This document shows positions 43,680 through 58,543 of a stretch of 64,000 nt of DNA, piece after piece (the first letter of the stretch is position 1; each line of letters opens with the position of its first letter). This stretch comes from Fidelibacterota bacterium. GTDB lineage: Bacteria; Fidelibacterota; Marinisomatia; Marinisomatales; SCKK01. Under the pieces are notes generated by a model, which made no database searches, was not told where the DNA came from, and saw nothing but the letters and a program-made list of their open reading frames with translations. The stretch covers positions 17,837-81,836 of the forward strand of contig SCKK01000009.1 in assembly GCA_004124475.1 (NCBI GenBank), written 5' to 3'. Both the position numbers and the translations under genes were made by a program.

Positions 43680-44006
43680 ATGGAAAACCGCTTAAAGAAA
43701 ATTCGACAAGAAATTGATAAAGTTGATGATGAATTAATAGCTCGTCTCACCCATCGTATGCAACTTGCCAGAAAATTAGGAAAATTAAAAGCAGAAAATC
43801 ACCTCCCAATTCATGATCCGGAAAGAGAAGAGTTTATTATAAACCGTCTCTCAAAAGCCGCTGGAGATTATCTGACAAAGGATCATTTAAGGAAAATCTA
43901 TAAAACAATTTTCACAATTGCCCAAGATATTGAATACCAAGAAAGTAATGCTTCAGTTATAGGTGTAGAAAATAGTTCAAAAGACCCAAGACCCAAGACC
44001 CAATAA
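43680..44006 (+). CDS. Chorismate mutase, AroQ class
   Basis: 108 aa. The three-helix AroQ fold is clear: RLKKIRQEIDKVDDELIARL, RMQLARKLGKLKAENHLPI and DPEREEFIINRLSKA...IYKTIFTIAQDIE. The active-site Arg, Lys and Glu are in place. It converts chorismate to prephenate for Phe and Tyr. The last residues (SSKDPRPKTQ) come from a short AGACCCAAG repeat and are probably not functional. It lies upstream of the attenuator, so its transcription may differ from that of trpE onward. Confidence 0.92.
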   Translation: MENRLKKIRQEIDKVDDELIARLTHRMQLARKLGKLKAENHLPIHDPEREEFIINRLSKAAGDYLTKDHLRKIYKTIFTIAQDIEYQESNASVIGVENSSKDPRPKTQ

Positions 44007-44263
44007 CCAATCCCGACCCCGACTCATCGGGGGGATGGTAATCAGTAAGTTCCCTGCTTGCCCGCCTGTACAACAAAGTCGGGCTGGCGTGACGCATTCA
44101 GGCAGGTGTTCTTTGGTTCTTGCTCCACAGGAGTCCCTTTGGGAGAGTTTGCCTGCCTGTCGGAAGACAGGGAACTTGGTTCTTCAAATATATCCCTGTC
44201 ACAAAGGGGTTACCCAAGAAAAATGGTTGCAATAGGACAAAAGGAGACCTAAATTAAAAAGAC

Positions 44264-44338
44264 ATGAGGAACGGTAACGAAAAATTCAACTGCTATTACT
44301 GGTGGTTTTTTTATGGAGGGTTGAGACGGCAACCATAA
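44264..44338 (+). CDS. Aromatic leader peptide YYWWFFY
   Basis: 24 codons from ATG to TAA. Codons 11-17 (44294-44314) read TAT TAC TGG TGG TTT TTT TAT, that is Tyr-Tyr-Trp-Trp-Phe-Phe-Tyr, directly before a pair of competing hairpins. Such a run is not expected by chance. AAGGAGA lies about 17 bp upstream, farther than usual; a stop at 44255 rules out a longer frame. It is the sensor of the attenuator that precedes trpE. Confidence 0.88.
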   Translation: MRNGNEKFNCYYWWFFYGGLRRQP

Positions 44339-44392
44339 GGTAAACCTATAATGTGAACGTCTCAAACCCCGCAAATTTATGTGGGGTTTTTT
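44315..44392 (+). promoter_or_regulatory. Transcription attenuator for Tyr, Trp and Phe
   Basis: Segment 2 (GGAGGGTTGAGACG, 44315-44328) can pair with segment 3 (CGTCTCAAACCCC, 44358-44370) to make an antiterminator. Segment 3's AAACCCCGC can instead pair with GTGGGGTTTTTT to make a terminator. A ribosome held on the aromatic codons just 5' of segment 2 would leave segment 2 free; one reaching the stop at 44336 would cover it. This is the classical Trp/His/Phe attenuation geometry. Confidence 0.85.
44364..44392 (+). terminator. Intrinsic terminator of the aromatic attenuator
   Basis: AAACCCCGC, loop AAATTTAT, GTGGGGTTT, then TTT: a nine-pair stem including one G-T, with a U run. It lies 26 bp after the leader stop codon and 167 bp before trpE. 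Confidence 0.9.
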
Positions 44393-44465
44393 GTATCCTG
44401 ATGTGATGAATAAGAAAACACAGCTGCGTCCCGATGCATTGGGAATTAAAAAGGCTGGGGCTAAG

Positions 44466-44558
44466 AGACTTGTGAGTGGTGACTGGTAACTGGTAGAATA
44501 GTGGAGTGCCTCGCCTGTTTACTACCCTGCCTCACGAATCACGTATCACGAATCACGC
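44466..44558. repeat. Word repeats immediately before trpE
   Basis: GTGAGTGGTGACTGGTAACT at the start and CACGAATCACGTATCACGAA near the end, abutting the trpE ATG at 44559. They occupy the place of a normal ribosome-binding site; none is visible. Related words occur at 17430-17532 in the pilus cluster. Confidence 0.6.
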
Positions 44559-46031
44559 ATGATGACCTTTGAAGAATTCAAATATTTAGCGAAATCGCAT
44601 AAAGTAGTGCCTGTCTACCAAAGAGTATTAGCTGACTTGCTGACTCCTGTTTCCGCTTTTATGCGCGTTGCTAAAGATACATCCTACAATTTCCTGATGG
44701 AATCGGTAGAAAAAGGGAATCGGTTCGGTCGGTATTCCTTCATCGGAATAAATCCTAAACTCATCCTCTCTCACTGCAATGGAAAAACGACCGTTTTAAA
44801 GGGTGATCCCAATACCTCTATTGATCAACCTTTTCCTGATATACTAAGAAATATATTAAACCAATACAAAGTCCCACATTTACCCGGTCTGCCTTCATTT
44901 TCAGGAGGTCTCGTCGGATATCTGAGCTACGAAACTGCAAGATGGACTGAAAACATTCCTATTCATTTTAATGGTGGTCTGGGAACCCCGGACGCCATTT
45001 TTATGCTCTACGATGAAGTCTTAGCTTTTGACCATTTTAAAAACCAGGTAATTGTATTCACCCATGTAGAAATCAAAAGAGACACAGATTTAAAAGAACT
45101 TTACCGTTTGGCGCAAATTCGAATAGACAAATTAGGGAAAGCGTTGCACACCGATATCGACTACCAATCCCCAAAAACAACCCATCGAAGTAAGCAAACG
45201 TGTGACATATCCCGGGAAGAATTCGAACAATCCGTTTTAAAAGCGAAAGAATATATTAAGTCAGGTGATATCTTCCAGGTGGTGCTGAGTCAAAGATTCC
45301 ATAGAAGTACCCAGGTTGATTCATTTACTATTTACCGTGCTTTACGTACCATCAACCCTTCCATGTATATGTTCTACCTGAAATTGAACGATTTTGACAT
45401 TATTGGTGCATCACCCGAACTCCTTGTAAAGGTTGAAAATGGTAATGTGGAAATACGACCCATCGCCGGGACACGTCCCAGAGGTAAAACAGAACTGGAA
45501 GACAATCAATTGGCAGAAGAGCTATTGTGCGACGAGAAAGAGAAGGCAGAACATCTCATGCTCCTTGACCTGGCGAGGAATGATGTGGGACGGGTCGTCG
45601 AAAAAGGATCTGTTCAGGTTAAAGATTATATGATCATCGAGAGGTATTCTCATGTCATGCACATTGTTTCTGATGTTCGAGGCAAGTTGGAGAAAAACAA
45701 AGACATTTTTGATGCACTGTTCAGCGGATTCCCGGCAGGAACCACCACCGGCGCTCCCAAAATCCGTGCCATGGAAATCATTCACGAACTTGAAACTCAC
45801 CGTCGAGATATCTATTCGGGGGCTGTCGGCTATATTGATTTAACAGGAAATTTGAATACTTGCATTGCCATTCGTGTTTTGGTGATGAAAGATGGCGAAG
45901 TATATTTTCAGTCAGGAGCAGGAATCGTTTATGATTCTCAACCTGACCGTGAATACCAGGAAACCATTAACAAAGCAAAAGCCATCATGCAAGCCATAGA
46001 TTTGGCGGAAGATGGTTTGGTCTCAACGTGA
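44559..46031 (+). CDS. trpE: Anthranilate synthase component I
   Basis: 490 aa. It makes anthranilate from chorismate with TrpG. The N-terminal tryptophan-binding LLES-type element is FLMESVEKGNRFGRYSF. The chorismate core has RPIAGTRPRG, RNDVGRVVEKGSVQV, SHVMHIVSDVRG and FPAGTTTGAPKIRAMEII. It is the first gene after the attenuator. Feedback inhibition by Trp is likely given the intact element. trpG follows 18 bp later. Confidence 0.96.
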   Translation: MMTFEEFKYLAKSHKVVPVYQRVLADLLTPVSAFMRVAKDTSYNFLMESVEKGNRFGRYSFIGINPKLILSHCNGKTTVLKGDPNTSIDQPFPDILRNILNQYKVPHLPGLPSFSGGLVGYLSYETARWTENIPIHFNGGLGTPDAIFMLYDEVLAFDHFKNQVIVFTHVEIKRDTDLKELYRLAQIRIDKLGKALHTDIDYQSPKTTHRSKQTCDISREEFEQSVLKAKEYIKSGDIFQVVLSQRFHRSTQVDSFTIYRALRTINPSMYMFYLKLNDFDIIGASPELLVKVENGNVEIRPIAGTRPRGKTELEDNQLAEELLCDEKEKAEHLMLLDLARNDVGRVVEKGSVQVKDYMIIERYSHVMHIVSDVRGKLEKNKDIFDALFSGFPAGTTTGAPKIRAMEIIHELETHRRDIYSGAVGYIDLTGNLNTCIAIRVLVMKDGEVYFQSGAGIVYDSQPDREYQETINKAKAIMQAIDLAEDGLVST

Positions 46032-46049
46032 TGTAGATTGGGTGAAAAC

Positions 46050-46643
46050 ATGGTAATTATCCTTGACAACTACGATTCATTTACCTACAATCTGGTACAA
46101 TATGTCGGTTCGTTAGGATTTGAGACTCTAACAATCCGGAATGATGTAGCTACTCCTCAGGAAATAATCAAAATGGAACCGGAGGCAATCATCATTTCTC
46201 CCGGACCGGGGATTCCTAAAGATGCTGGAATTTCTGTAAGTCTTATTCAAGCAGTTACAGGAAAAATCCCCATCTTAGGGGTTTGTCTCGGTCATCAGGC
46301 AATAGCCTATGCGTTTGGGGGTAAAATTACTCAAGCACAGGAAATAGTCCATGGGAAAACATCCCCTATCTATCACGACAACTCACAAATATACAAAGAA
46401 CTTCCCAACCCCTTTAATGCAACCCGATACCATTCACTTATCGTTGAAAAAGATACTTTTCCTTCCATACTTAAAATCACTGCCACGACGGATTCAGATT
46501 TAATTATGGGGATAAAGCACTTAGTACACCCAATATTTGGTGTTCAATTTCACCCGGAATCTTTTGCCACAGATAACGGAATTCAGATTATTAAGAATTT
46601 ATTAGAGATAATTTCAGCAAAAACAAAGGTGACTGAAAAATGA
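46050..46643 (+). CDS. trpG: Anthranilate synthase glutamine amidotransferase
   Basis: 197 aa from ATG 46050 (an in-frame TTG at 46038 is less likely). Class I amidotransferase triad: GVCLGHQAIAYAFGG (Cys), and FGVQFHPESFAT (His, Glu). NYDSFTYNLVQYV is the standard N-terminus. It supplies ammonia to TrpE. It could also serve aminodeoxychorismate synthase (PabA), as single TrpG/PabA proteins often do. Stop overlaps trpD by 4 bp. Confidence 0.95.
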   Translation: MVIILDNYDSFTYNLVQYVGSLGFETLTIRNDVATPQEIIKMEPEAIIISPGPGIPKDAGISVSLIQAVTGKIPILGVCLGHQAIAYAFGGKITQAQEIVHGKTSPIYHDNSQIYKELPNPFNATRYHSLIVEKDTFPSILKITATTDSDLIMGIKHLVHPIFGVQFHPESFATDNGIQIIKNLLEIISAKTKVTEK

Positions 46644-47638
46644 AACAGGTACTTGAAAAATTGTTGGATAAAGAAAGTCTGACCAGAGATGAATCCTACA
46701 ATGTTATGGGACAAATCATGTCCGGAGGATTTGACGATGTGCAGGTGGGAGCATTTCTTGTGGCTTTACGAGCAAAAGGTGAAACCGTAGATGAAGTTGT
46801 TGGATTTGCAGATGCCATGCGAAAAAAAATGACGCCCATTCAGATTGGAGACGGCGCCATTGATATGTGCGGAACCGGAGGTGATATGAAAATTACTTTC
46901 AATATTTCCACTGCTGCATCATTTCTGGTGGCTGGCGCTGGAGTAAAAGTAGCAAAACATGGGAATCGTGCTGCCTCATCCCGATCCGGATCCGCAGACG
47001 TATTAACAGCATTGGGGGTAGATATCTCCATGTCCCCAGAGAAAGTAGCCCTGTGTGTAGAAGAAATTGGAATTGGTTTCCTTTTCGCTCCTGCCCTCCA
47101 TCCTGCCATAAAGTACGCTGTTCCTGCAAGAAAATCGTTAGCCATCAGAACCGTTTTTAACATTTTAGGACCTCTTTGTAATCCCGCCAAAGTAAAACGA
47201 CAGGTGTTGGGGGTCTTTGCACCTGAACTAACCTCAAAAATGGCAAACATCTTAAAAGCTCTCGGCTCAGAAGAAGTGATGGTGATATACGGGAATGACG
47301 GTCTTGACGAACTGACAATCACCACTACCTCTTCAGTCAGCCACCTCACCAACGATGGGAATATTTCTGAAATGACAATAAATCCTCAAGATTATGGCTT
47401 TCCCCTTGGGTCCATTGAAGATCTTAGAGGAGGCTCTCCCGATGAAAATGCCCAAATTATCGAGAAAATCCTGAAAGGAGAAAAAGGTCCCCGACGAGAT
47501 GTGGTAGTACTTAATGCAGCTGCAGGAATTATGGTGGGAGGTAAATCAACCACAATGGAGGAAGGAATCCAATTAGCAAAAGAGGCTATAGATTCAGGAA
47601 AAGCACTTAATGTATTACAACAATTGGCAGCAGCGTGA
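46640..47638 (+). CDS. trpD: Anthranilate phosphoribosyltransferase
   Basis: 332 aa. PRPP-loop CGTGGDM, KHGNRAASSRSGSADVLTALG and the NPAKVKRQVLGVF region identify TrpD. It joins anthranilate to PRPP. Its TGA overlaps the GTG start of trpC (GTGA), implying translational coupling. Confidence 0.95.
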   Translation: MKQVLEKLLDKESLTRDESYNVMGQIMSGGFDDVQVGAFLVALRAKGETVDEVVGFADAMRKKMTPIQIGDGAIDMCGTGGDMKITFNISTAASFLVAGAGVKVAKHGNRAASSRSGSADVLTALGVDISMSPEKVALCVEEIGIGFLFAPALHPAIKYAVPARKSLAIRTVFNILGPLCNPAKVKRQVLGVFAPELTSKMANILKALGSEEVMVIYGNDGLDELTITTTSSVSHLTNDGNISEMTINPQDYGFPLGSIEDLRGGSPDENAQIIEKILKGEKGPRRDVVVLNAAAGIMVGGKSTTMEEGIQLAKEAIDSGKALNVLQQLAAA

Positions 47639-48420
47639 CGTCAATAATTTCACAAATTCTTCACAATAAAAGGCAGGAAGTTGCCAATTTAGAGAAAATA
47701 CTCCCTATGTCTGAGTTAATGGAAATGGAACGTGTAAACCCCTTAGTTTCCTTTCGTGAATTCCTGGCTCGTCCAGGTGTTCAAATCATCGCAGAAATAA
47801 AACCAAAATCTCCTTCCATGGGTGAGCTAAAAAAAGATTTCGATCTTATTGGGATCGTCGAGGCTTATGAAAAAAATGGAGCAGCAGCCATCTCAGTACT
47901 TACCGATGAAATGTATTTTGGGGGAAGTCTGGATATACTCAAACAAGTAAAGTCAACTACCCAATTACCTGTGCTCAGAAAAGACTTTATTATTACGGAA
48001 TACCAAGTATGGGAATCCTATATGGCAGGCGCTGATGCGATACTTCTTATTGCCAATGCTCTCCCTCTCGATCGCCTAATATCCCTACATGAGTTGGCAG
48101 AAGATTTAGGATTAGCAGTTCTGGTTGAGATTTATGAACAGAACCACGCCTATCTCTTTCAATCATTTAATCCGAACATTACCGGTGTAAATGCCAGAAA
48201 CCTTCAAACTCTAAAGACGGATTTGGAAAGATGTTTAACCATGGTTGACTTACTACCCAAAAAATCCGTAAAGGTCGCCGAAAGTGGGATTTCATCGAGA
48301 AAGGATATCATAAAAATTGCTCACACAGGTTTCGATGCAGCTTTGGTGGGTTCTTCACTCATGTCTGCTCCCGACCCGGGGAAAAAATTAGCAGAACTTA
48401 CATCGAGGGTAGAAGCATGA
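47635..48420 (+). CDS. trpC: Indole-3-glycerol-phosphate synthase
   Basis: 261 aa from GTG 47635. A TIM barrel with EIKPKSPSMGELK (catalytic Lys, Ser), VLTDEMYFGGSLD, PVLRKDFIITEYQVWES (catalytic Lys) and KVAESGISSRKDI (phosphate loop). ATGA overlap with trpF. Confidence 0.95.
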   Translation: MTSIISQILHNKRQEVANLEKILPMSELMEMERVNPLVSFREFLARPGVQIIAEIKPKSPSMGELKKDFDLIGIVEAYEKNGAAAISVLTDEMYFGGSLDILKQVKSTTQLPVLRKDFIITEYQVWESYMAGADAILLIANALPLDRLISLHELAEDLGLAVLVEIYEQNHAYLFQSFNPNITGVNARNLQTLKTDLERCLTMVDLLPKKSVKVAESGISSRKDIIKIAHTGFDAALVGSSLMSAPDPGKKLAELTSRVEA

Positions 48421-49070
48421 TTCCCGTCAAAATCTGCGGAATTACATCCCTAAAATCGGCTCAATTAGCCGTTCATGCTGGAGCTTCCGCTATTGGTTTT
48501 ATCTTTTTTCCACAGAGCCCCAGATATGTGATGCCCGATATAGCTGCCTCGATCAGCCGCCAAGTACCAAACCACATCGCCCGGGTAGGTATATTTGTCA
48601 ATGAAAAAACTGATACGATTCATTCGATGGTTAAAACGGTTGGATTAGATTTCCTTCAACTTTATCCCCATCAGGAAAAATTAGATGAGCTGTCCCGGAA
48701 ATATTCAGTAATCAGCGCTATTCAGGTGAAAAATGATGAGGTACCATCCCTACCTGATGGAAATATTTCCGCTTATCTCCTGGATACCTATCGTGATGGA
48801 AAGTTTGGTGGGACAGGAGAATCATTCGATTGGAAAGCAGTTCAAAACCTTGCAACTGAAGTCCCCATCATCCTTTCAGGTGGATTGAATCCAGACAATA
48901 TACTTAAAGCAATTCAGACAGTTAAACCTCAGGCAGTGGACGTAAATAGTGGTGTCGAAACATCACTTGGTGTTAAAGACCATCAAAAATTAATACACTT
49001 ATTTGAAATACTTCAAAGCACTGGAAACTATCCAAATCTGTTTGAAAGAAACATAACTGAATCGCATTAA
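48417..49070 (+). CDS. trpF: Phosphoribosylanthranilate isomerase
   Basis: 217 aa. [11 protein letters not shown] holds the catalytic Cys; [19 protein letters not shown] holds the catalytic Asp and the phosphate loop, with LSGGLNPDN and [16 protein letters not shown] closing the barrel. Here trpF and trpC are separate genes, unlike the enterobacterial fusion. Confidence 0.95.
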
Positions 49071-49071
49071 A

Positions 49072-50283
49072 ATGGAAAATCCAATCAAAACCTATACCTT
49101 ACCGGATGAAAAAGGACACTTTGAGATTTTTGGTGGTCAGTATGTCCCCGAAACTCTCATCCCAGCGCTATCTGAACTTAAAGAGTTATACAATACATTA
49201 AAACAGGATGGAGCATTTACAGAAGAATTATCACAAATATTAAAAAGCTATGCCGGCAGACCCACGCCACTCACTTACGCCAACCGTATTTCAGAAGAAT
49301 TGGGATTTCACGTCTATTTAAAAAGGGAGGATCTTGCTCATACAGGCGCCCATAAAATCAATAATGTCCTTGGGCAGATTTTATTGGCTAAGCGGATGGG
49401 GGAAAAAAGGATTATTGCAGAAACAGGCGCTGGACAACACGGGGTAGCCACAGCCACCGCAGCAGCAAAATTTGGTTTCCCATGCACAATTTATATGGGG
49501 ACAGAGGATATTGAACGGCAAAAATTAAACGTCTTCAGAATGGAACTCCTTGGAGCAGAGGTAATCCCTGTAAGCTCAGGCAGTTGCACATTAAAAGATG
49601 CCATCAACGAAGCTATTCGCGATTGGATTACCAACGTCGAAACGACATACTATCTCATTGGTTCGGTTGTTGGTCCCCACCCCTATCCCATGATTGTAAG
49701 GGATTTTCAATCTATTATCGGAAAAGAAACCAAAATACAATTCAAAGACATTACGAATGGAGATCAAGCACCCGATACTATCGTCGCTTGTGTGGGGGGT
49801 GGGAGTAATGCAATTGGGATATTTCATACATTTCTGTCAGATAACGTAAGGTTGGTAGGCGTAGAAGCAGCAGGAAAAGGATTGAAAACAGACAAACATG
49901 CAGCATCTATCACGAAAGGTTCTTTTGGCGTTCTTCACGGCTCTGCCAGCTTCATTCTCCAATCCGAGGATGGACAAATCACCCTTCCCCACTCCATTTC
50001 AGCCGGACTCGATTACCCGGGCGTGGGACCTGAGCACAGTTACTTAAAATCCATTGGTCGCGTTGAATATGCCTCAGCTACCGACGATGAATCCATCTCT
50101 GCGTACATTTGGTTATCTGAGAAAGAAGGTATTCTTCCGGCTCTGGAATCAGCTCATGCCCTCAGTTTCTTGCGATCCCCGGACAATGGAATACATTCTG
50201 GTGAAAACGTTGTCATCTGCTTGTCAGGACGGGGTGATAAAGACGTACAAACGGTTGCAGAATTTCTGGGACGAGACATATGA
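49072..50283 (+). CDS. trpB: Tryptophan synthase beta chain
   Basis: 403 aa, TrpB1 type. PLP lysine in [32 protein letters not shown], and the phosphate-binding [12 protein letters not shown]. It forms Trp from indole and serine in complex with TrpA. It starts 1 bp after the trpF stop; its TGA overlaps trpA. Confidence 0.96.
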
Positions 50284-51050
50284 ACCGGATTCAACAACTC
50301 TTTAAAAAACCTGGTGGAAAACTCATCCCCTATGTCACTGCGGGATATCCTTCACTCAATCTGACTACAAAACTTGTTTTGGCAATGGAAAAGGGCGGAG
50401 CAGATATGATTGAACTTGGCTTACCATTCTCTGACCCTCTTGCAGACGGTCCGGTAATTCAAGCCTCCAGTCAGGTAGCTCTTAAGAACGGTGTGAACAC
50501 CCAGTGGGTACTTGAGCAAGTTGAGATCATCAGAAAATCATCACAAATTCCCATTACTCTCATGGGTTATATAAATCCGATTCTGAAATATGGTTATAAT
50601 AAATTCTTTTTTGATTGCCAACAGGTTGGAGTAGATGGAATTATTGCTCCCGACCTACCGATTGAGGAGGCGAAGGACTTTGTGTTATTGAGTAAGTCAA
50701 ACAACATATCACCCATTTTGCTTGTCGCACCAAACACCCCTAATGATCGAATCCGCACAATTTCTCAAATGGCGGGTGACCTTGTCTATTGTGTCGCTAT
50801 CCTGGGCGTTACAGGAGAAAAACTTTCCAAGGAAGCAACTTTGGTGAAATACCTGTCTCGAGTCAGAGAGAATAGCAATACCCCATTCATTGTGGGCTTC
50901 GGGATAAAAACCCACCAAGATGTAGAAAGAATCAACAGATTGTCCGACGGCGCTGTGGTCGGAACGTCGTTTGTGGAAAAACTCCGAGATTCCAACCACC
51001 CTGAAAAAACTGTTTTGAAATATGTTAAAGAACTGAAAGGAGTGAAATGA
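50280..51050 (+). CDS. trpA: Tryptophan synthase alpha chain
   Basis: 256 aa. [19 protein letters not shown] holds the catalytic Glu and Asp, [12 protein letters not shown] the loop, and IVGFGIKT the phosphate site. It releases indole from indole-glycerol phosphate. Four-base overlaps on both sides show tight coupling, here with the Phe/Tyr branch gene downstream. Confidence 0.96.
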
Positions 51051-51628
51051 AAACAATAGGTATTCAAGGAGGAAACGGCAGCTTTTGCCACGAAGCTTCT
51101 GCTAACTTTAGTAAAAATCATGGCATTGAGAAATACAAAATTGAGTTTTTGATCACATCAGAAAAGGTTCTCAATGCGGTAGAAAACGGCAAAGTCGATT
51201 TCGGTATTTTCGCCATGGAAAATGCCCAGGGAGGCGTCGTGTTGGAAAGTATAGTGGCACTGGCTCATTACAAGTGTGAGATTGTGGAAATGTTTTATAT
51301 TCCAATCAGCCAAAATCTTCTCGCTCGGAGAGGGGTGTTTGTAGGTGATGTTACGGAAATACATTCTCATCAACAGGCATTGCGTCAATGCAGGGATTAT
51401 CTATCGGAACATTTCTGGACCCGACCACTCATTGAAGAAGACGATACAGCAGAGGCAGCACGTAGACTTAAAGAAGGTAAACTACCTAAAACCGCCGCCG
51501 TTATCGCTCCAAAATCATGTGCCGACCTTTATGGATTGGTCATTCTTCAAGAAGATATTCATGATTTAAAAAATAACCTTACTTTATTTATTGGAATAAA
51601 AAAACTTGAGGACAGCAATGATGAATAG
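51047..51628 (+). CDS. Prephenate dehydratase-like protein without ACT domain
   Basis: 193 aa. The two-lobed PDT domain is recognisable: IGIQGGNGSFCHEASANF, VDFGIFAMENAQGGVV, IHSHQQALRQCRDYL, EEDDTAEAARRL and AAVIAPKSCADLYGL. The usual C-terminal ACT domain that binds Phe is absent, and the TRF motif reads NNLTLFIGI, keeping Thr but not Arg. It probably makes phenylpyruvate (or acts on arogenate). Without ACT, control would fall to the attenuator. A divergent non-catalytic role is possible. Confidence 0.8.
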   Translation: MKTIGIQGGNGSFCHEASANFSKNHGIEKYKIEFLITSEKVLNAVENGKVDFGIFAMENAQGGVVLESIVALAHYKCEIVEMFYIPISQNLLARRGVFVGDVTEIHSHQQALRQCRDYLSEHFWTRPLIEEDDTAEAARRLKEGKLPKTAAVIAPKSCADLYGLVILQEDIHDLKNNLTLFIGIKKLEDSNDE

Positions 51629-52346
51629 TGTTGGAATTATCGGTTTCGGTCGGTTTGGAAGAGTTTTAGGACAGATTCTATCTGATGATTTCAAAGTAAA
51701 GGCATTTGACATTAAACAACAAGAACCTCAGTTTGGGGTGGAATTTGTAAATCTCGAAACAATACTCCAGGAAAAAATTATTTTCATATCCGTACCTATT
51801 CGAGACCTGAAAAATGTAATTATGGATATTGCTCCAAACCTTCAAAAGGGAACAACAGTATTGGATGTCTGTTCCGTAAAGGTCTATCCCGTCACGGTCA
51901 TGACGGAAGCATTGCCTTCTCATGTGGGCATCATCGCAACACATCCTCTTTTCGGACCTGACTCAATAACTATACCTAATGGTCATAAGATTATCATGCA
52001 CAGAACACGAGATGTATACAATCAATTCGATTTCTGGAAAGATTATTTCGCATCGAAAGCCTTTGAAGCGATTGAGATGTCACCGGAAGAACACGATAAA
52101 TTGGCAGCATACTCACAAGGCGTTACCCACTTCATTGGTAGAATTCTGAAAGAGACAGGGATTACATCAACAGAAATTGACACAGTAGGTTTCCGAACAC
52201 TTTTAGATGTGATAGACCAGACATGTAATGACAGTTGGCAGCTTTTCTGCGATCTTGAGAATTATAATCCTTACTCTCTGCGAATGATGGAAAATCTGGA
52301 AAACTCGATTGAAAAGGTTCGAGCTCAAATTCTAAGGAGAAATTAA
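51618..52346 (+). CDS. tyrA: Prephenate/arogenate dehydrogenase
   Basis: 242 aa from ATG 51618, with GAGGA 5 bp upstream; the frame is open from TTG 51606. Rossmann motif VGIIGFGRFGRVLG, then ATHPLFGPDSIT and QGVTHFIGRIL with the conserved His. It oxidises prephenate or arogenate on the Tyr branch. It is short, with no ACT domain, like the cyanobacterial/plant-type arogenate enzymes; substrate choice cannot be read from sequence. Confidence 0.9.
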   Translation: MMNSVGIIGFGRFGRVLGQILSDDFKVKAFDIKQQEPQFGVEFVNLETILQEKIIFISVPIRDLKNVIMDIAPNLQKGTTVLDVCSVKVYPVTVMTEALPSHVGIIATHPLFGPDSITIPNGHKIIMHRTRDVYNQFDFWKDYFASKAFEAIEMSPEEHDKLAAYSQGVTHFIGRILKETGITSTEIDTVGFRTLLDVIDQTCNDSWQLFCDLENYNPYSLRMMENLENSIEKVRAQILRRN

Positions 52347-52347
52347 T

Positions 52348-53367
52348 ATGCTGATTATTATGAACGCAACTGCCACGGACCCTCAAATTGTCAGGGTTAA
52401 GGAACGAATTGAAGAATTAGGTTTCACTGCCCACGACATCCCAGGCAGAACGAGGCTCGCAATTGGAGTTACCGGCAATAAGAATGCCGATGATCGTGTT
52501 TATCTTGAAGGATTGCCCGGCGTTTTACAAGTCATTCCCGTTACCAAACCTTACAAACTTGCCAGCCGAGATATGCACCCGGAAAATTCCGTTATTTCTG
52601 TTCAGAGCGTCAAATTTGGGGATGGGAATGTGGTCATGATTGCCGGACCTTGCGCTGTGGAAAGTAGAGATCAGACATTAAGAATTGCCGAACAGGTTGC
52701 TGAGAGAGGGGCACAGATGCTCCGGGGTGGAGCCTACAAACCGAGAACATCTCCGTATTCTTTCCAGGGATTAGGCGAGGAAGCCTTAAAAATTTTGGCT
52801 GAAGCAAGAGAAAAAACCGGACTACCTATCGTTACAGAAGTTGTGGATCCAAATACCGCTGCCTTAGTAGGAAATTATGTCGATATGCTCCAAATAGGCA
52901 CTCGTAATATGCAGAATTTTATACTGCTTAAGGAAGTGGGTCGGGTCGGAAAACCCGTTCTATTAAAACGAGGAATGAGCGCAACCTTAGATGAAACTCT
53001 CATGTCCGCTGAATACCTCATGGCTCATGGCTGCCATGATGTGGTCATTTGCGAACGAGGTGTCCGCACCTTCACAAGCCATGCGCGGAATACACTGGAC
53101 ATCAGCATAATTCCAGCGCTAAAGCGGGTCAGTCACCTTCCCATTATTATAGATCCAAGTCATTCGAGTGGACAGCGGTTCAGCGTTATCCCTCACGCTC
53201 TCGCTGGAATTGGCGCCGGAGCGGACGGACTGATTGTGGATGTCCACGACAAGCCGGAAGAAGCGCTCTGCGATGGACCTCAAGCGCTCCCACCTGTAGA
53301 GTTTTCTGAATTGATGAGGATCGCCAAGGGTGTTTGTAACGCAATGGGAAAGAGCATTGGACAATGA
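52348..53367 (+). CDS. aroF: 3-deoxy-7-phosphoheptulonate synthase, type I-beta
   Basis: 339 aa. An N-terminal ferredoxin-like regulatory domain (about 1-75) precedes the barrel, as in the Thermotoga enzyme. Barrel motifs: MIAGPCAVESRDQTL, MLRGGAYKPRTSPYSFQG, KPVLLKRGMSATLDE, VVICERGVRTF and IIDPSHSSGQR. It condenses PEP and erythrose 4-phosphate, the entry step. The N-domain would allow feedback by Tyr or Phe. A 104-bp gap before aroA may hold a secondary promoter, not located. Confidence 0.95.
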   Translation: MLIIMNATATDPQIVRVKERIEELGFTAHDIPGRTRLAIGVTGNKNADDRVYLEGLPGVLQVIPVTKPYKLASRDMHPENSVISVQSVKFGDGNVVMIAGPCAVESRDQTLRIAEQVAERGAQMLRGGAYKPRTSPYSFQGLGEEALKILAEAREKTGLPIVTEVVDPNTAALVGNYVDMLQIGTRNMQNFILLKEVGRVGKPVLLKRGMSATLDETLMSAEYLMAHGCHDVVICERGVRTFTSHARNTLDISIIPALKRVSHLPIIIDPSHSSGQRFSVIPHALAGIGAGADGLIVDVHDKPEEALCDGPQALPPVEFSELMRIAKGVCNAMGKSIGQ

Positions 53368-53471
53368 CCGGCATGAGTGGGCAGTAAGCAGTACACACTA
53401 TGCAACCGATTATCGACAACTGACAAAAACAGTAAGCTCATAACCAGCTACATACAAATGATTACAAAAAA

Positions 53472-54719
53472 ATGAGAATATCAGGTGATCTTACATTTCC
53501 CGGGGATAAATCGATTTCCCACCGGGCTCTCATGCTGGCAGCGCTCACCAATGGCGAATGCATCATTGATAATCTGTCAACAGGAGTGGACGTGGAATCG
53601 ACCCGACAGTGTTTAATGACGTGTGGTGTTCAATCCGAAAAGAACGGGAAACAGGTTGTCATCACGGGGAATACACTGAAAAATCCAGCAAGTGATCTCG
53701 ACTGTGGGAATTCCGGCACCACAGCCAGACTCCTCACAGGGCTTTTAGCTGGCCAAGGAATCACTACCACACTTACGGGGGACAAGTCCCTTAGTCAGCG
53801 GCCCATGGAAAGAATCATCCAACCTTTGGGATTGATGGGAGCTTCTTTCGAGAACGAGAATGGTTACCTTCCCCTGCGCCTGAATTCTGCACCGCTTACG
53901 GGTATCGAATACTCACCCCCAGTGGCAAGCGCACAGGTAAAGTCTGCAATTCTTTTTGCAGGATTGGGCGCAGAGGGAGAAACAACCGTCATTGAAAAAA
54001 CAAAAACGAGAGATCATACGGAACGGATGCTGCATGTACTTGGTGCCGATATTCGATTGGATGGGAATAGATCAACAATTAAAAAACTGGAAAATCCACT
54101 CAAACCCTTCGCAATGAAAGTCCCCAGTGACCCATCCACAGCGGCTTTCTTTGCAGCGGCGGCGGCTCTGGTCCCGGGCTCAAACTTGATCCTGAAAGGG
54201 ATTCTTTCCAACCCTACTCGGACCGGATTCTTTTCAGCTTTGGAGAAAATGGGTGCAGGGATGGAATGTCTGAATCAATGGAAGGAGAACGGTGAAGACG
54301 TGGGAGACCTTAGAATTTTTCATCAATCACTGAAGGGAATCAATATCTCGGGTAACCAGATTCCTGTTGTTATTGATGAACTCCCCATTCTTGCGATCCT
54401 CGCCACACAGGCGGAAGGAGTCACTATGGTACAAGATGCACGAGAGCTTCGTGTGAAAGAATCGGACAGGATTTCAGCAATTTGTGTCAACCTTCGGCGA
54501 ATGGGCGCAAACGTAGAGGAATTAGAAGATGGGTTTGTGATCACAGGACCCACACCTCTTCACTCCGCCCAGATCACTACCCACAATGATCACCGCATAG
54601 CTATGGCATTCACTATAGCTGGGCTTATTTCCGATGAACCAATTACGTTGGATAATTCGGACTGTATCGCTATTTCGTGTCCGGAATTTGATTATCTATT
54701 AAAGCAGGTGGTGCGATGA
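53472..54719 (+). CDS. aroA: EPSP synthase (3-phosphoshikimate 1-carboxyvinyltransferase)
   Basis: 415 aa. GDKSISHRALMLAAL, DCGNSGTTARLLTGLLAG, SAQVKSAILFAGL, RVKESDRISA and TTHNDHRIAMAF carry the substrate-binding Lys, Arg and Asp residues. The NSGTT-type motif with Gly before Thr is the class I form. Its last codons overlap aroE by 4 bp. Confidence 0.96.
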   Translation: MRISGDLTFPGDKSISHRALMLAALTNGECIIDNLSTGVDVESTRQCLMTCGVQSEKNGKQVVITGNTLKNPASDLDCGNSGTTARLLTGLLAGQGITTTLTGDKSLSQRPMERIIQPLGLMGASFENENGYLPLRLNSAPLTGIEYSPPVASAQVKSAILFAGLGAEGETTVIEKTKTRDHTERMLHVLGADIRLDGNRSTIKKLENPLKPFAMKVPSDPSTAAFFAAAAALVPGSNLILKGILSNPTRTGFFSALEKMGAGMECLNQWKENGEDVGDLRIFHQSLKGINISGNQIPVVIDELPILAILATQAEGVTMVQDARELRVKESDRISAICVNLRRMGANVEELEDGFVITGPTPLHSAQITTHNDHRIAMAFTIAGLISDEPITLDNSDCIAISCPEFDYLLKQVVR

Positions 54720-55579
54720 ATTTTGCCGTCATCGGGAATCCCGTTGCACACAGCTTGAGTCCAGATCTGCATAATTGGATTTTTAAACAGTTGGGAATTG
54801 ATGCACATTACAAAAAAATTGAAACTACAAGGGATGGTATTCCCGATATAATTTCCAGATTGAGGCGTGGCCAATTGAACGGCATCAATGTCACTCTACC
54901 TCATAAACAAGAAATTATACCCTATCTTGACTCGGTTAATCCGCGGGCACAACTCATTCATGTTGTGAACTGTGTTGCAATTCAAGATAAAAAACTCACC
55001 GGTTACAACACCGACTGGTTCGGCTTCATAACAGCATTAGAACAGAAAAAAATAGATGTTAAAGGGAAAATTTGTCTAATACTCGGCGCTGGAGGAGTGG
55101 CGAGAAGTGTCCTGTATTCACTAATACAGTATCGAGCCCAAAAAATAATTTTAGCAAGCCGGATTATCAAGAAAGGTAAAACATTAATTAAATCATTAAG
55201 CCCCTTTTTTAAGAAAACAGTTGTAATATCCATTTCATTCAACGAAATAGAACAATACATTTCTAAAGATTGTGTTATTATCAATTGTACTCCTGTAGGC
55301 ATGACACCCGATAGTAGTGTATCTCCCCTGGCAAAACAGCTTCTCCAAAAAGAACAAATTCTTATCGACACCATTTATAATCCAATCAATACGAAGTTCT
55401 TGATGGACGGTCAGGCATTAGGGGTAAAAACATTAGGTGGGTTGACAATGTTCATCTATCAAGGAATTGCGTCGTTGGAGCTATGGTTAAACAATGCAGT
55501 AAGAGAAAATGTTAATATAAATGAATTGAAAGAATATCTACAGAGCCAAATAGAATCCACGCAACTAATTGAGGCTTAA
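54716..55579 (+). CDS. aroE: Shikimate 5-dehydrogenase
   Basis: 287 aa. NPVAHSLSPDLHNW, GINVTLPHKQEIIPYLD (catalytic Lys), YNTDWFGFI (Asp) and the NADP loop LILGAGGVARSVLYSL. It reduces 3-dehydroshikimate. No dehydroquinate dehydratase is fused to it, so the step before it depends on another gene (see the aroQ remnant at 61299). Confidence 0.95.
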   Translation: MNFAVIGNPVAHSLSPDLHNWIFKQLGIDAHYKKIETTRDGIPDIISRLRRGQLNGINVTLPHKQEIIPYLDSVNPRAQLIHVVNCVAIQDKKLTGYNTDWFGFITALEQKKIDVKGKICLILGAGGVARSVLYSLIQYRAQKIILASRIIKKGKTLIKSLSPFFKKTVVISISFNEIEQYISKDCVIINCTPVGMTPDSSVSPLAKQLLQKEQILIDTIYNPINTKFLMDGQALGVKTLGGLTMFIYQGIASLELWLNNAVRENVNINELKEYLQSQIESTQLIEA

Positions 55580-55596
55580 GTAAGGGTGAAATCACT

Positions 55597-56757
55597 ATGA
55601 TGCAAAGACTAAAATTCCTAACCGCAGGTGAATCTCACGGGAAAGGTCTGCTGGGGATTATTGAAGGAATTCCGGCTGGGTTAGAGATCAGCGAGGATTA
55701 CATTGCTTATCACCTGACTCGCCGACAGATGGGGCACGGTCGTGGTAAACGGATGCAGATTGAAAAGGATCGAGCAGAAATCTACTGTGGAGTCCGTCAC
55801 GGCAAGACATTAGGTTCTCCTGTGGGTCTCATTCTGCCTAATAAAGATTGGGAGAATTGGAAAAAGAAAATGGCAATAGAACCCATAAATGAGGAAGTTA
55901 CGAAAGTCACTCTCCCCCGTCCCGGCCACGCTGATTTGGCAGGTGTGCAGAAATTTGATTTCGATGACATCCGAAATGTATTGGAACGATCTTCCGCTCG
56001 GGAGACAGCTATACGAGTTGCATTGGCATCTATCTGTCGAAAATTGCTAAAAGAAGTCCATATTGAAGTAGGCAGCAAAGTAATTCAGATCCATCAAATA
56101 AAAGATACTTCACCCCTAGCGCAGGATATGTCTCCTGAAGAATTAAATAGATTGGTTGACACCTCTCCGGTACGATGTTTAAACAAGGATGCTGAAAAAA
56201 AAATGGTAGAAGCTATCGACAAGGCTAAAAACTCAGGGGATTCAGTGGGAGGTATTTTTGAGGTTATAGCAACAGGACTTCCCTACGGATTAGGAAGTCA
56301 TACTCAGTGGGACCGGAAACTCCACGCAAGAATTGCTGAAGCCCTTTTATCAGTAAATGCATTTAAAGGGATTGAAATCGGTCTTGGATTCGCCCAAGCG
56401 GAAAAATACGGCAGTGAAGTTCACGATGAAATTGGGTGGGAAAATGGAAAATATATTCGGTATTCCAACAACGCAGGTGGAATCGAAGGTGGAATGAGCA
56501 ATAGTCAACCGATCTTCATCAGATGTGTAATGAAACCGATTCCAACCTTGATTAAACCGTTGCGTTCTGTGGATATCAAGTCTAAAGAGGCGAAGCTCGC
56601 TCACAAGGAACGAACGGATTCCTGTGCTGTACCGGCGGCATCAATCGTAGCAGAGAGTATGCTCTGTTTCGTTTTAGCTGATGCCCTACTGGAGAAGTTT
56701 GGGGGTGACACCGTTGAACAACTGAAAGCACACATGGAGGCAAGTGCGAGGTATTAA
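55597..56757 (+). CDS. aroC: Chorismate synthase
   Basis: 386 aa. All signatures are present: LTAGESHGKGLLGIIEGIP, GRGKRMQIEKDRAEI, VLERSSARETAIRVA and GGIEGGMSNSQPI. FMN-dependent, it forms chorismate from EPSP. A 123-bp gap with a CCGACTTGTCGG-type repeat separates it from aroK. Confidence 0.96.
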   Translation: MMQRLKFLTAGESHGKGLLGIIEGIPAGLEISEDYIAYHLTRRQMGHGRGKRMQIEKDRAEIYCGVRHGKTLGSPVGLILPNKDWENWKKKMAIEPINEEVTKVTLPRPGHADLAGVQKFDFDDIRNVLERSSARETAIRVALASICRKLLKEVHIEVGSKVIQIHQIKDTSPLAQDMSPEELNRLVDTSPVRCLNKDAEKKMVEAIDKAKNSGDSVGGIFEVIATGLPYGLGSHTQWDRKLHARIAEALLSVNAFKGIEIGLGFAQAEKYGSEVHDEIGWENGKYIRYSNNAGGIEGGMSNSQPIFIRCVMKPIPTLIKPLRSVDIKSKEAKLAHKERTDSCAVPAASIVAESMLCFVLADALLEKFGGDTVEQLKAHMEASARY

Positions 56758-56880
56758 GAATTTGTGGCATCCTGCCTCGTAGTCCCGACCCCGACTTGTC
56801 GGGGGGAGAGTGTATCGGGGTGCCAGTGGCAGTCAAAAAGATGATCCACTACTGCCACTTGTGAGATTAAGGTACGGATA
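56758..56880. repeat. Dispersed palindromic repeat between aroC and aroK
   Basis: CCTGCCTCGTAGTCCCGACC, CCGACTTGTCGGGGGGAGAG and TGTATCGGGGTGCCAGTGGC. Related copies lie at 20937-20985 (reverse), about 8918-8955 and 15530-15560. It sits inside the aromatic operon. Confidence 0.65.
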
Positions 56881-57423
56881 ATGAACATATTTATCATCGG
56901 CATGATGGGCAGTGGCAAAACGACAGTAGGCAAGCAACTGGCAAAAAAGCTCAACATGTCATTCGTCGATATAGACGAAACAGTAGAAATGGTTACTGGA
57001 ATGTCAATCTCTGAAATATTTGAAATATTTGGAGAAGAAAAATTCAGGGAAATGGAAAGTGCTTTTTTTATTGAAAAATCAAAGCAGGACCATCAGATAT
57101 TTTCCACCGGAGGTGGAATTGTACTCAGATCAGAAAACAGAAATATTCTGAAAACCAATGGAACAACCATATTACTCCGTAATAAACCTGAAACACTAAC
57201 TGTTAGGTTAAAATCCTCTCCAGAGGATCCTTCGTCCGAAGGACCCTGTGGGGAAAACTCCAGACCTCTTTTATACAACAGTTTTAATCTTAATGATAGA
57301 CTGACTAAAATTTGGAATGAACGGAAATCTTACTATGAATCTTCCGCAAAGTACATTATCGATACAGACGAATTGACGTACAATGAAGTAGTGAAAAAGA
57401 TTGCTCGATACCTTCAAAATTAA
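56881..57423 (+). CDS. aroK: Shikimate kinase with repeat-encoded insert
   Basis: 180 aa. Walker A IIGMMGSGKTTVGKQLA, the shikimate-binding DIDETVE and FREMES, GGGIVLR, and the LID region RPLLYN. Between LKSS and RPLL about 13 residues (PEDPSSEGPCGENS) are encoded by the GGATCC-type palindromic repeat also found in the NtrC-type gene. The insert lies in the mobile LID, where extra length may be tolerated. The frame stays open, so the gene is probably functional. Confidence 0.92.
   Translation: MNIFIIGMMGSGKTTVGKQLAKKLNMSFVDIDETVEMVTGMSISEIFEIFGEEKFREMESAFFIEKSKQDHQIFSTGGGIVLRSENRNILKTNGTTILLRNKPETLTVRLKSSPEDPSSEGPCGENSRPLLYNSFNLNDRLTKIWNERKSYYESSAKYIIDTDELTYNEVVKKIARYLQN
57216..57264. repeat. 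GGATCC-type palindromic repeat inside aroK
   Basis: GGATCCTTCGTCCGAAGGA then CCCTGTGGGGAAAACTCCAG. Only a few bases differ from the copy at 11719-11762. Translated in frame as part of the shikimate kinase LID. Confidence 0.8.
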
Positions 57424-57454
57424 AATAAAACACACATCCCAAAGCTATTTTCAG

Positions 57455-58543
57455 GTGAAGACAATTAAAGTAAATCTTGGCAAACGATCCTATCCCATTT
57501 GGATAGATCATGGTTTGCTCCGACGAGTTCCGGAATTGTTAGGTCCTCGAACCGGACACCAATGGGTCATCGTGACACAGGCTACAGTTCGCAATTTATA
57601 TGCCCATAAGCTTACAGAACTACTGAAATCGTCTGGAATAGATGTGAGCACAATCATTATACCGGAAGGCGAAGAGGCAAAATCGTTGTCCGAGGTAGAA
57701 TCCATTTACGAGCAACTGTTAGAACTAAATTGTGACCGCTCTACCCTGTTAGTAGCACTGGGTGGAGGCGTGGTTGGAGACGTGACCGGTTTCGTGGCTG
57801 CCACCTACCTCCGTGGTGTGGACTATCTTCAGGTTCCCACTACATTGCTTGCAATGGTGGACTCTGCCATTGGTGGGAAGACAGGCGTCAACCTTCCTCA
57901 AGGAAAAAACTTAGTGGGTGCCTTTTATCAGCCCATCGGTGTCGTTGTAGATCCCGAATTGCTCCAGTCACTTCCCCGTAGGGACGTAATCTCCGCTATG
58001 GGAGAAATCCTGAAATACGGCGCCATTCGGGATCGAGATTTCTTTGAGAAACTCCGGCAGAATATGGATTCACTTCTGTCTTTAGAGGATGAAGAAGTCC
58101 TTCTGAAAGCTATTGTTCGCTGTTGTGAAATCAAAGCGGATGTAGTTTCGCATGATGAACAAGAAAGTGATCTTCGACGGATTCTGAACTTTGGTCACAC
58201 TATAGGTCATGCACTAGAGACGGTTGCAGGCTACGGGATTTTACAACATGGTGAGGCGGTCGCGTACGGGATGATTGCCGCAGGACAGATTTCTCATGAA
58301 CTGGGATATTTGAACCAACAGGATCATGAACTCCTTGTATCGACCCTTAGGAAACTTCCACTCCCCAAGCTCCCCGATCTTAACCCGGAGGTAGTACTTG
58401 AAGCAATCGGACATGATAAGAAAGTAAAAGCCGGAAGGCTTCACTTTGTGGTGTTGGAGGGATTGGGAAATGCGATTGTTACAGACGAAGTTTCAGATGA
58501 GCGAATTATGAACGTGATTAAAGATGGTATATTTCAACATTAG
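57455..58543 (+). CDS. aroB: 3-dehydroquinate synthase
   Basis: 362 aa from GTG 57455 (the resulting start, VKTIKVNLGKRSYPIWID, fits the family; the frame is open from 57401 inside aroK). LGGGVVGDVTGFVAATYLRG is the NAD-binding region; PTTLLAMVDSAIGGKTGVN and LNFGHTIGHALE supply the zinc His and Glu residues. It is the last intact gene of the aromatic cluster. Confidence 0.95.
   Translation: MKTIKVNLGKRSYPIWIDHGLLRRVPELLGPRTGHQWVIVTQATVRNLYAHKLTELLKSSGIDVSTIIIPEGEEAKSLSEVESIYEQLLELNCDRSTLLVALGGGVVGDVTGFVAATYLRGVDYLQVPTTLLAMVDSAIGGKTGVNLPQGKNLVGAFYQPIGVVVDPELLQSLPRRDVISAMGEILKYGAIRDRDFFEKLRQNMDSLLSLEDEEVLLKAIVRCCEIKADVVSHDEQESDLRRILNFGHTIGHALETVAGYGILQHGEAVAYGMIAAGQISHELGYLNQQDHELLVSTLRKLPLPKLPDLNPEVVLEAIGHDKKVKAGRLHFVVLEGLGNAIVTDEVSDERIMNVIKDGIFQH

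Follow-up and report, generated by a model that had tools for sequence, protein, structure and literature searches.

A leader peptide with Tyr, Trp and Phe codons as a putative gate of a combined aromatic amino acid operon in Fidelibacterota

A short open reading frame (ORF) in a Fidelibacterota bacterium (assembly GCA_004124475.1, contig SCKK01000009.1, positions 17,837 to 81,836; this whole stretch of 64,000 nucleotides is hereafter called the window) raises the question of whether one leader peptide can read Tyr, Trp and Phe together and gate a single operon for all three. Ribosome-mediated attenuation by leader peptides is textbook knowledge, and leaders that read several amino acids exist, such as ilvL of the Escherichia coli ilvGMEDA operon, which reads Ile, Val and Leu. 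The leader ORF of the window spans 44264-44338 on the forward strand (24 codons) and translates as MRNGNEKFNCYYWWFFYGGLRRQP followed by a stop codon, with Cys-Tyr-Tyr-Trp-Trp-Phe-Phe-Tyr at codons 10-17. The proposed control codons are Tyr-Tyr-Trp-Trp-Phe-Phe-Tyr (codons 11-17, 44294-44314, forward strand), a composition that tracks operon content in relatives. Downstream, ORFs and family scans gave the gene order trpEGDCFBA-pheA-tyrA-aroFAECKB, all on the forward strand from 44559 to 58543, which bears out the combined trp-phe-tyr-aro operon proposed in a sequence-only reading of the locus. The genes trpE, trpG, trpD, trpC, trpF, trpB and trpA lie at 44559-51050 (NCBIfam and ORFs), pheA (prephenate dehydratase), tyrA (prephenate dehydrogenase) and aroF (DAHP synthase) at 51047-53367 (Pfam PDT, PDH_N and DAHP_synth_1 above gathering scores; NCBIfam), and aroA, aroE, aroC, aroK and aroB at 53472-58543 (Pfam). 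An aroQ-type chorismate mutase gene (43680-44006, forward strand; Pfam CM_2, 72.8 bits) precedes the leader, as aroQ does in many relatives.

Two hairpins follow the control codons on the forward strand. The antiterminator pairs a 5′ strand, GGGTTGAGACG (44318-44328), within the 3′ end of the leader ORF, with a 3′ strand, CGTCTCAAACCC (44358-44369), and the intrinsic terminator consists of the stem-loop AAACCCCGCAAATTTATGTGGGGTTT (44364-44389) and a T-run to 44392. Because the antiterminator and the terminator 5′ arm both use 44364-44369, the two structures are mutually exclusive at the terminator base, as had been claimed from the sequence with coordinates that proved right within three bases. 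A ribosome stalled at a Tyr, Trp or Phe codon would allow the antiterminator to form in place of the terminator, so that the operon serving all three amino acids would be expressed. With each of the three charged tRNAs in ample supply, the ribosome would reach the stop codon at 44336 and cover GGGTTGAGACG, whereupon the terminator would stop transcription before trpE. On the sequence comparisons and folding models described below, it is very probable that the Tyr, Trp and Phe codons of the leader act in this way as an OR-gate, with a stall at any of them leading through the antiterminator to expression of the whole operon. That shortage of any one aromatic amino acid would switch on the whole cluster is a prediction, and a likely one.

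The window leader ORF is not a product of chance. When the 300 bases upstream of trpE were shuffled 5000 times with dinucleotides preserved, no shuffle gave a start-to-stop ORF with seven aromatic residues in eight, Trp included, which upholds the 24-codon ORF of the sequence-only reading. The 146-base leader region also folds better than its shuffles (z -2.58; 2/200 shuffles as good). A predicted promoter, TTGCAA (44227-44232) and TAAATT (44250-44255) with a 17-base spacer, ends 8 bases before the start codon on the forward strand, and -35/-10 pairs ending 5-10 bases before the leader start codon were found at 39/54 leaders of the phylum against 7.2 expected from base shuffles. Shine-Dalgarno-like motifs precede 1/54 leaders, and trpE in 7/54. 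Given the position of the promoter pair and the rarity of such motifs, the leader mRNA is predicted to be leaderless or nearly so, with transcription probably starting no more than a few bases from the leader start codon. Rfam gave no match at gathering score anywhere in the whole window, the T-box riboswitch included, and the T-box was also absent among the 13 Rfam matches up to E = 10 in 44200-44420. The covariance models of Trp_leader (RF00513), Leu_leader (RF00512) and Phe_leader (RF01859) scored 17.6, 17.6 and 15.9 bits on the window, below their gathering scores of 41, 50 and 55, respectively.

The switch was modelled in nascent RNA by placing the ribosomal A site at each codon, with a footprint reaching 12 bases further, and by reading the upstream pairing of the terminator 5′ arm in RNA that ended short of the terminator 3′ arm. 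This model was checked on trpL, pheL and ilvL of E. coli, where the curves were as expected from the known behaviour of these leaders. Across 54 loci and at the 12-base footprint, the mean antiterminator probability was 0.93 for Trp, 0.86 for Tyr and 0.87 for Phe codons compared with 0.21 at the stop codon, and in 43/54 the aromatic run ended no more than one codon away from the boundary at which the model switches. In the window, Y11, Y12, W13, W14 and F15 leave the antiterminator free at this footprint and the next codons do not. By the model, F16 works only at a 9-base footprint and Y17 hardly works, while at 15 bases F15 fails too, leaving no working Phe codon in the window (values at 9 and 15 bases were read by shifting one codon per three bases). 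A working codon for each of Trp, Tyr and Phe was present in 27/27 operons at footprints of 6 and 9 bases, 22/27 at 12 and 20/27 at 15.

The window curve resembles those of trpL and pheL, except that in the E. coli leaders the first codons block the antiterminator in the model; such an early block, the mark of an attenuator with a protecting 1:2 hairpin, was not seen in the window, where codon 2 scored 8/9 against 3/9 for codon 2 of trpL (12-base footprint). Since its early codons leave the antiterminator unblocked, an untranslated leader may read through. The ilvL leader is like the window in both respects, as its run ends at the modelled boundary and no early codons block. Equilibrium folding gave the window terminator a probability of 0.78-0.94 with the ribosome at aromatic codons and 0.94 at the stop codon, compared with 0.96-0.98 for trpL and 0.00-0.29 at five of the seven Phe codons of pheL. 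As a switch test it was dropped, because trpL also keeps its terminator and pheL does not, so that the calculation does not discriminate. As the terminator mostly wins at equilibrium, the order of synthesis must matter, and the antiterminator would have to form first. The window leader thus has clustered codons for the amino acids that its operon produces and an intrinsic terminator between ORF and first gene, the two directly visible marks of an attenuator; the third, an antiterminator that excludes the terminator and would be exposed by a ribosome on the control codons but hidden by one on the stop codon, is computed.

Antiterminator strands were better partners for each other than for strands from elsewhere. 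Over 52 distinct loci, cognate strands paired at a mean of -20.9 kcal/mol against -14.1 kcal/mol with strands of other families, and against shuffles they reached a mean z of -3.1, at or beyond the 5% mark in 44/52. At 9/52 loci, at least a fifth of the other-family strands paired as well as the cognate one; at the window locus, none did. Base pairs that had changed on both sides with pairing kept numbered 3/14 in family f20 and 7/15 in families f6/f8, with some cells broken in both, and RNAalifold gave covariation terms of +0.08 in f20, which is practically none, and of -0.36 in f6/f8, which is small.

To survey the phylum, TrpE was sought in 245 genomes and found in 62 at E ≤ 1e-90, in 63 places, of which 60 were fetched. 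An N-terminal trpE piece (L045) brought the set to 61 loci, and two without usable upstream sequence (L082, L120) left 59 assessable. By TrpE, the named relatives belong for the most part to Candidatus Neomarinimicrobiota. A counterpart of the window leader, in the form of a short ORF in which aromatic codons cluster, was present at 54/59 of these loci, with a terminator before trpE in 54/54, and was absent at five (L078, L079, L081, L118 and L119). The first three of these belong to one genus in family f16 and have neither leader nor terminator; the congeneric L075 has FWWY. Most leader ORFs came from a scan for at least four aromatic residues in nine, and those of L072, L084, L104 and the Trp-only L106, L107, L110, L112, L115 and L116 were recognised by eye in translated frames, a possible source of bias. 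Taken singly, the aromatic cluster alone beat shuffles at ≤2/300 in 33/54 loci; in the other 21/54 it was not so far beyond them or was missed by the shuffle scan. The distance from leader start codon to trpE was 123-175 bases in all but two loci, the window (295) and L089 (252). Dispersed repeats flank the attenuator of the window (43945-44214 and 44405-44560), with many partial copies in the genome and a congener, and may explain its long gap between terminator and trpE. The closest relative, G001 of the same genus, was left out, as its contig opens with the last 28 codons of trpE and nothing but dispersed repeats matched near the leader. Another genome (G124) has a second copy of the trp operon (L258).

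Leaders were also found where trp genes are missing. A pattern of antiterminator plus terminator matched 18/245 genomes, once each, with 0 matches for the reversed control; these were 14 known trpE loci and four genomes without a TrpE match. In three of these four the attenuator precedes pheA, once after a trpE/trpA deletion remnant, and the fourth match lies at a contig end. Furthermore, pheA was found in 111 genomes, 65 of them without a TrpE match, and pheA regions were taken from 34; three carry trp genes after all and two were too short, which left 29 trp-less loci. A leader was present at 28/29 of them, each with a terminator (28/28), and absent at one (L238).

This conservation bears on two further readings of the hairpins. 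According to one, the hairpin does no more than terminate transcription of aroQ, and the ORF arose by chance in T-rich DNA. Many genomes do have the end of aroQ ahead of the leader, and the terminator lies between two genes, but the shuffles of the window (0/5000), the conservation at trpE loci (54/59) and in trp-less operons (28/29), and the promoter-like pair aimed at the leader start codon (39/54 against 7.2) make this reading exceedingly improbable. According to the other, the leader acts via Rho, translational coupling, or a peptide or small RNA in trans, as reported for trpL of Sinorhizobium meliloti. There, the 5′ end of the leader transcript coincides with the ATG of the leader ORF (PMC7298713), as predicted for the window, so that the predicted leaderless small transcript resembles rnTrpL; rnTrpL differs in being a Trp leader, and the trans role reported for its RNA and peptide is not known for the window leader. 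Action of this kind is nevertheless very unlikely, given an intrinsic terminator in 54/54 and 28/28 leaders and an antiterminator that overlaps the terminator 5′ arm by 4-12 bases in 52/52. Attenuation by a stalled ribosome is the reading followed here.

If the codons are sensors, their kinds should be compared with the genes that follow. Runs of Trp, Tyr and Phe were defined by a loose rule (at most one other residue between neighbours) and a strict rule (none between). The 54 leaders comprised 27 with pheA after trp (25 of these with tyrA as well), eight trp-only, seven with trp and aro without pheA, and 12 that were unclassable owing to contig ends or a broken operon. A run of all three aromatics occurred in 26/27 leaders with pheA downstream by the loose rule and 24/27 by the strict rule, compared with 0/8 trp-only leaders by either; all three fell within a stretch of eight residues in 27/27 pheA-bearing and 2/8 trp-only leaders (L089, L097). 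Seven trp-only loci were so classed on the strength of 9 kb or more of sequence downstream, and the eighth (L116) because its pheA-aro operon is located elsewhere. By the strict rule six trp-only leaders carry WW or WWW, one FWW and one WFW; the six belong to two families, and the trp-only state needed three changes on the TrpE tree. In the seven loci with trp and aro without pheA, all three aromatics were present in 4/7 (loose) or 2/7 (strict), the core being YWWYY or YYWWYYY in the five loci of family f25 and WWYNY in L117, whose genome has no pheA match.

Residue order varies while composition is kept, as in YYWWFFY, YYSWYWFF, FYFYYWW, WKWYF and YYYFWF. Arrest peptides are known to hinge on the identity of particular residues. 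An arrest of the TnaC kind, in which the nascent peptide itself stalls the ribosome on a free metabolite, might be suggested by the bulky aromatic residues clustered towards the end of a short ORF ahead of an aromatic operon. However, no conserved order was found between families, and the leader residues differ with gene content, which renders such an arrest highly improbable beside a response to charged tRNA.

The trp-less operons extend the comparison. In their genomes trpD was found in 0/28, against 4/4 controls, and in 12/28 the only TrpB match was a weak one (E 1e-22 to 1e-34), which we read as a TrpB2-like paralogue. Phe and Tyr are both in the core of 28/28 trp-less leaders, and Trp is in the eight-residue core of 3/28 (anywhere in 5/28, the other two having it after the core) compared with 54/54 trp-bearing leaders (Fisher p = 4e-18, with kinship ignored). 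Family f15 supplies 11/28 of the trp-less leaders; with it removed, core Trp stands at 3/17 against 49/49. The three trp-less leaders with core Trp are FYSLYWFF, YYSGYWFF, where a trp remnant remains, and YYSWYWFF, where 35 trpE codons remain. On the PheA+TyrA tree the presence of trp changes 16 times, at least nine of them on well-supported branches. Sister pairs of trp-bearing and trp-less leaders are FYSWFWFY (L105) and YFSSYYFF (L233), FYSWFWFY (L102) and YFSGYYFF (L237), and FYFWFWY (L104) and FSYYFKYF (L231). In the three pattern-matched attenuators before pheA, the codons that encode Trp in relatives read TTG, CGG or GGG. Trp codons look as if they vanish after trp deletion through single-base changes from TGG.

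Two loci appear to be recent trp deletions: in L223 (G112) the beginning of trpE passes directly into the final part of trpA, and in L227 (G033) about 35 trpE codons remain before pheA. The Phe/Tyr leader of L225 and L226 (G045, G108) is preceded by a TrpG-like and a TrpE-like gene, which may be pabA and pabB and which in L225 stand between aroQ and the leader. Being upstream of the leader, these genes are beyond the reach of the attenuator.

A plain tryptophan attenuator, in which the Trp codons alone matter and Tyr and Phe are bystanders, could claim the two Trp codons in the middle of the run, the trp genes at the head of the operon and the AroR leader peptide of Corynebacterium glutamicum (the leader of aroF), whose Phe-Tyr-Phe responds to Phe and not to Tyr (PMC11802643). 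Such a device is unlikely, since leaders without trp genes keep Phe and Tyr (28/28) and the terminator (28/28) while most lose Trp, and since trp-only leaders in two families have runs of WW or WWW (6/6, strict rule). Comparison of the region upstream of trpE across relatives, put forward with the sequence-only reading as its check, came out in its favour: the short aromatic ORF, the competing hairpins and the terminator are kept, and the codon kinds follow the downstream genes.

Where the operon is split, the leader may be split as well. Each trp-bearing locus of family f15 has one leader, KTWKWYF, ahead of trpE and another, FNNYYFYF or FNYYYFYF, ahead of the next half (5/5, by eye). In L098, L099, L100, L101 and L103, the Phe/Tyr-only leader MKNFNNYYFYFRCRGTIGA and near copies of it lie between trpA and aroQ with a terminator of their own. 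In this family, trp comes and goes together with its own leader. The aroA locus L269, also of f15 and from a genome without a pheA match, has the Phe/Tyr leader FYNYYFYF and a terminator. It was one of ten aroA loci from genomes without a pheA match, which were examined separately and stand outside the counts. No leader was found at L261 (G041: aroQ-tyrA-DAHP synthase, no TrpE or pheA match), and no leader-terminator pair was seen within 400 bases upstream of the first matched gene in the other eight, several of which were cut by contig ends or had other genes upstream.

Among 30 further pheA genomes without a TrpE match (G001 completes the 65), 20 were examined (eight of family f23 and 12 of f30). 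All 12 f30 loci have a terminator and a leader with a YYFF-like run ahead of tyrA-pheA-aroF. A single Trp codon stands three residues before the run in 9/12 (L280-L288), and trpD was found in 3/12 genomes; the presence of trpD does not explain the lone Trp codon. No leader was found before the aroF-tyrA-pheA operon of f23, either in three loci of trp-only genomes or in the eight further loci, two of which (L277, L278) were too short upstream to tell. A DYWFW frame before aroF in L171 was rejected by eye for want of a start codon. In the trp-only f23 genomes, a small conserved gene, which we take to be of the YjbQ family, precedes the separate aro-tyr-phe operon upstream of aroQ (L166-L168).

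Among known systems, trpL and pheL of E. coli share the layout of the window leader, in which the control codons of a short ORF are closely followed by an antiterminator overlapping an intrinsic terminator, but read one amino acid each. They start from a Shine-Dalgarno site. The sequence-only reading had called the sensing of all three aromatics unusual, and this stands in part: no such case was found in the literature searched, but the reading of three amino acids at once is not new, as ilvL does so. As the three aromatics form one biosynthetic family, ilvL is the proper comparison, being one leader for three amino acids of one family, though a branched-chain one. The nearest aromatic case found in the literature is C. 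glutamicum aroR, where a leader ahead of a shikimate gene likewise contains both Phe and Tyr; the run as described has no Trp, and there is a separate trp leader (PMC11802643, PMC4046766). The searches found no experiment on the window leader and no literature combining ‘marinimicrobia’ and ‘leader peptide’. Among the matches listed, which were seen as titles and beginnings of abstracts and left subscription journals mostly outside, none described one leader reading Phe, Tyr and Trp. What looks new, on sequence comparison and modelling, is the putative three-aromatic OR-gate, its spread through a phylum and the bookkeeping of codons for genes.

The leader is probably best seen as an evolvable codon register, in which each aromatic amino acid has codons of its own and codons are lost or gained per amino acid along with the matching genes, and which splits with its gene block; it would operate on leaderless mRNA that has no Shine-Dalgarno motif. 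The many natural deletions, in which loss of a pathway is accompanied by loss of the matching codons, provide evidence from evolution that leader codons persist on account of the genes under their control. In a phylum seen chiefly through metagenomes, a classical regulator thus appears to sense three amino acids simultaneously on behalf of a single combined operon, and it would constitute a clean logic gate, an OR over three charged tRNAs. For uncultured bacteria, it would make amino acid auxotrophies readable from a 20-codon sequence.
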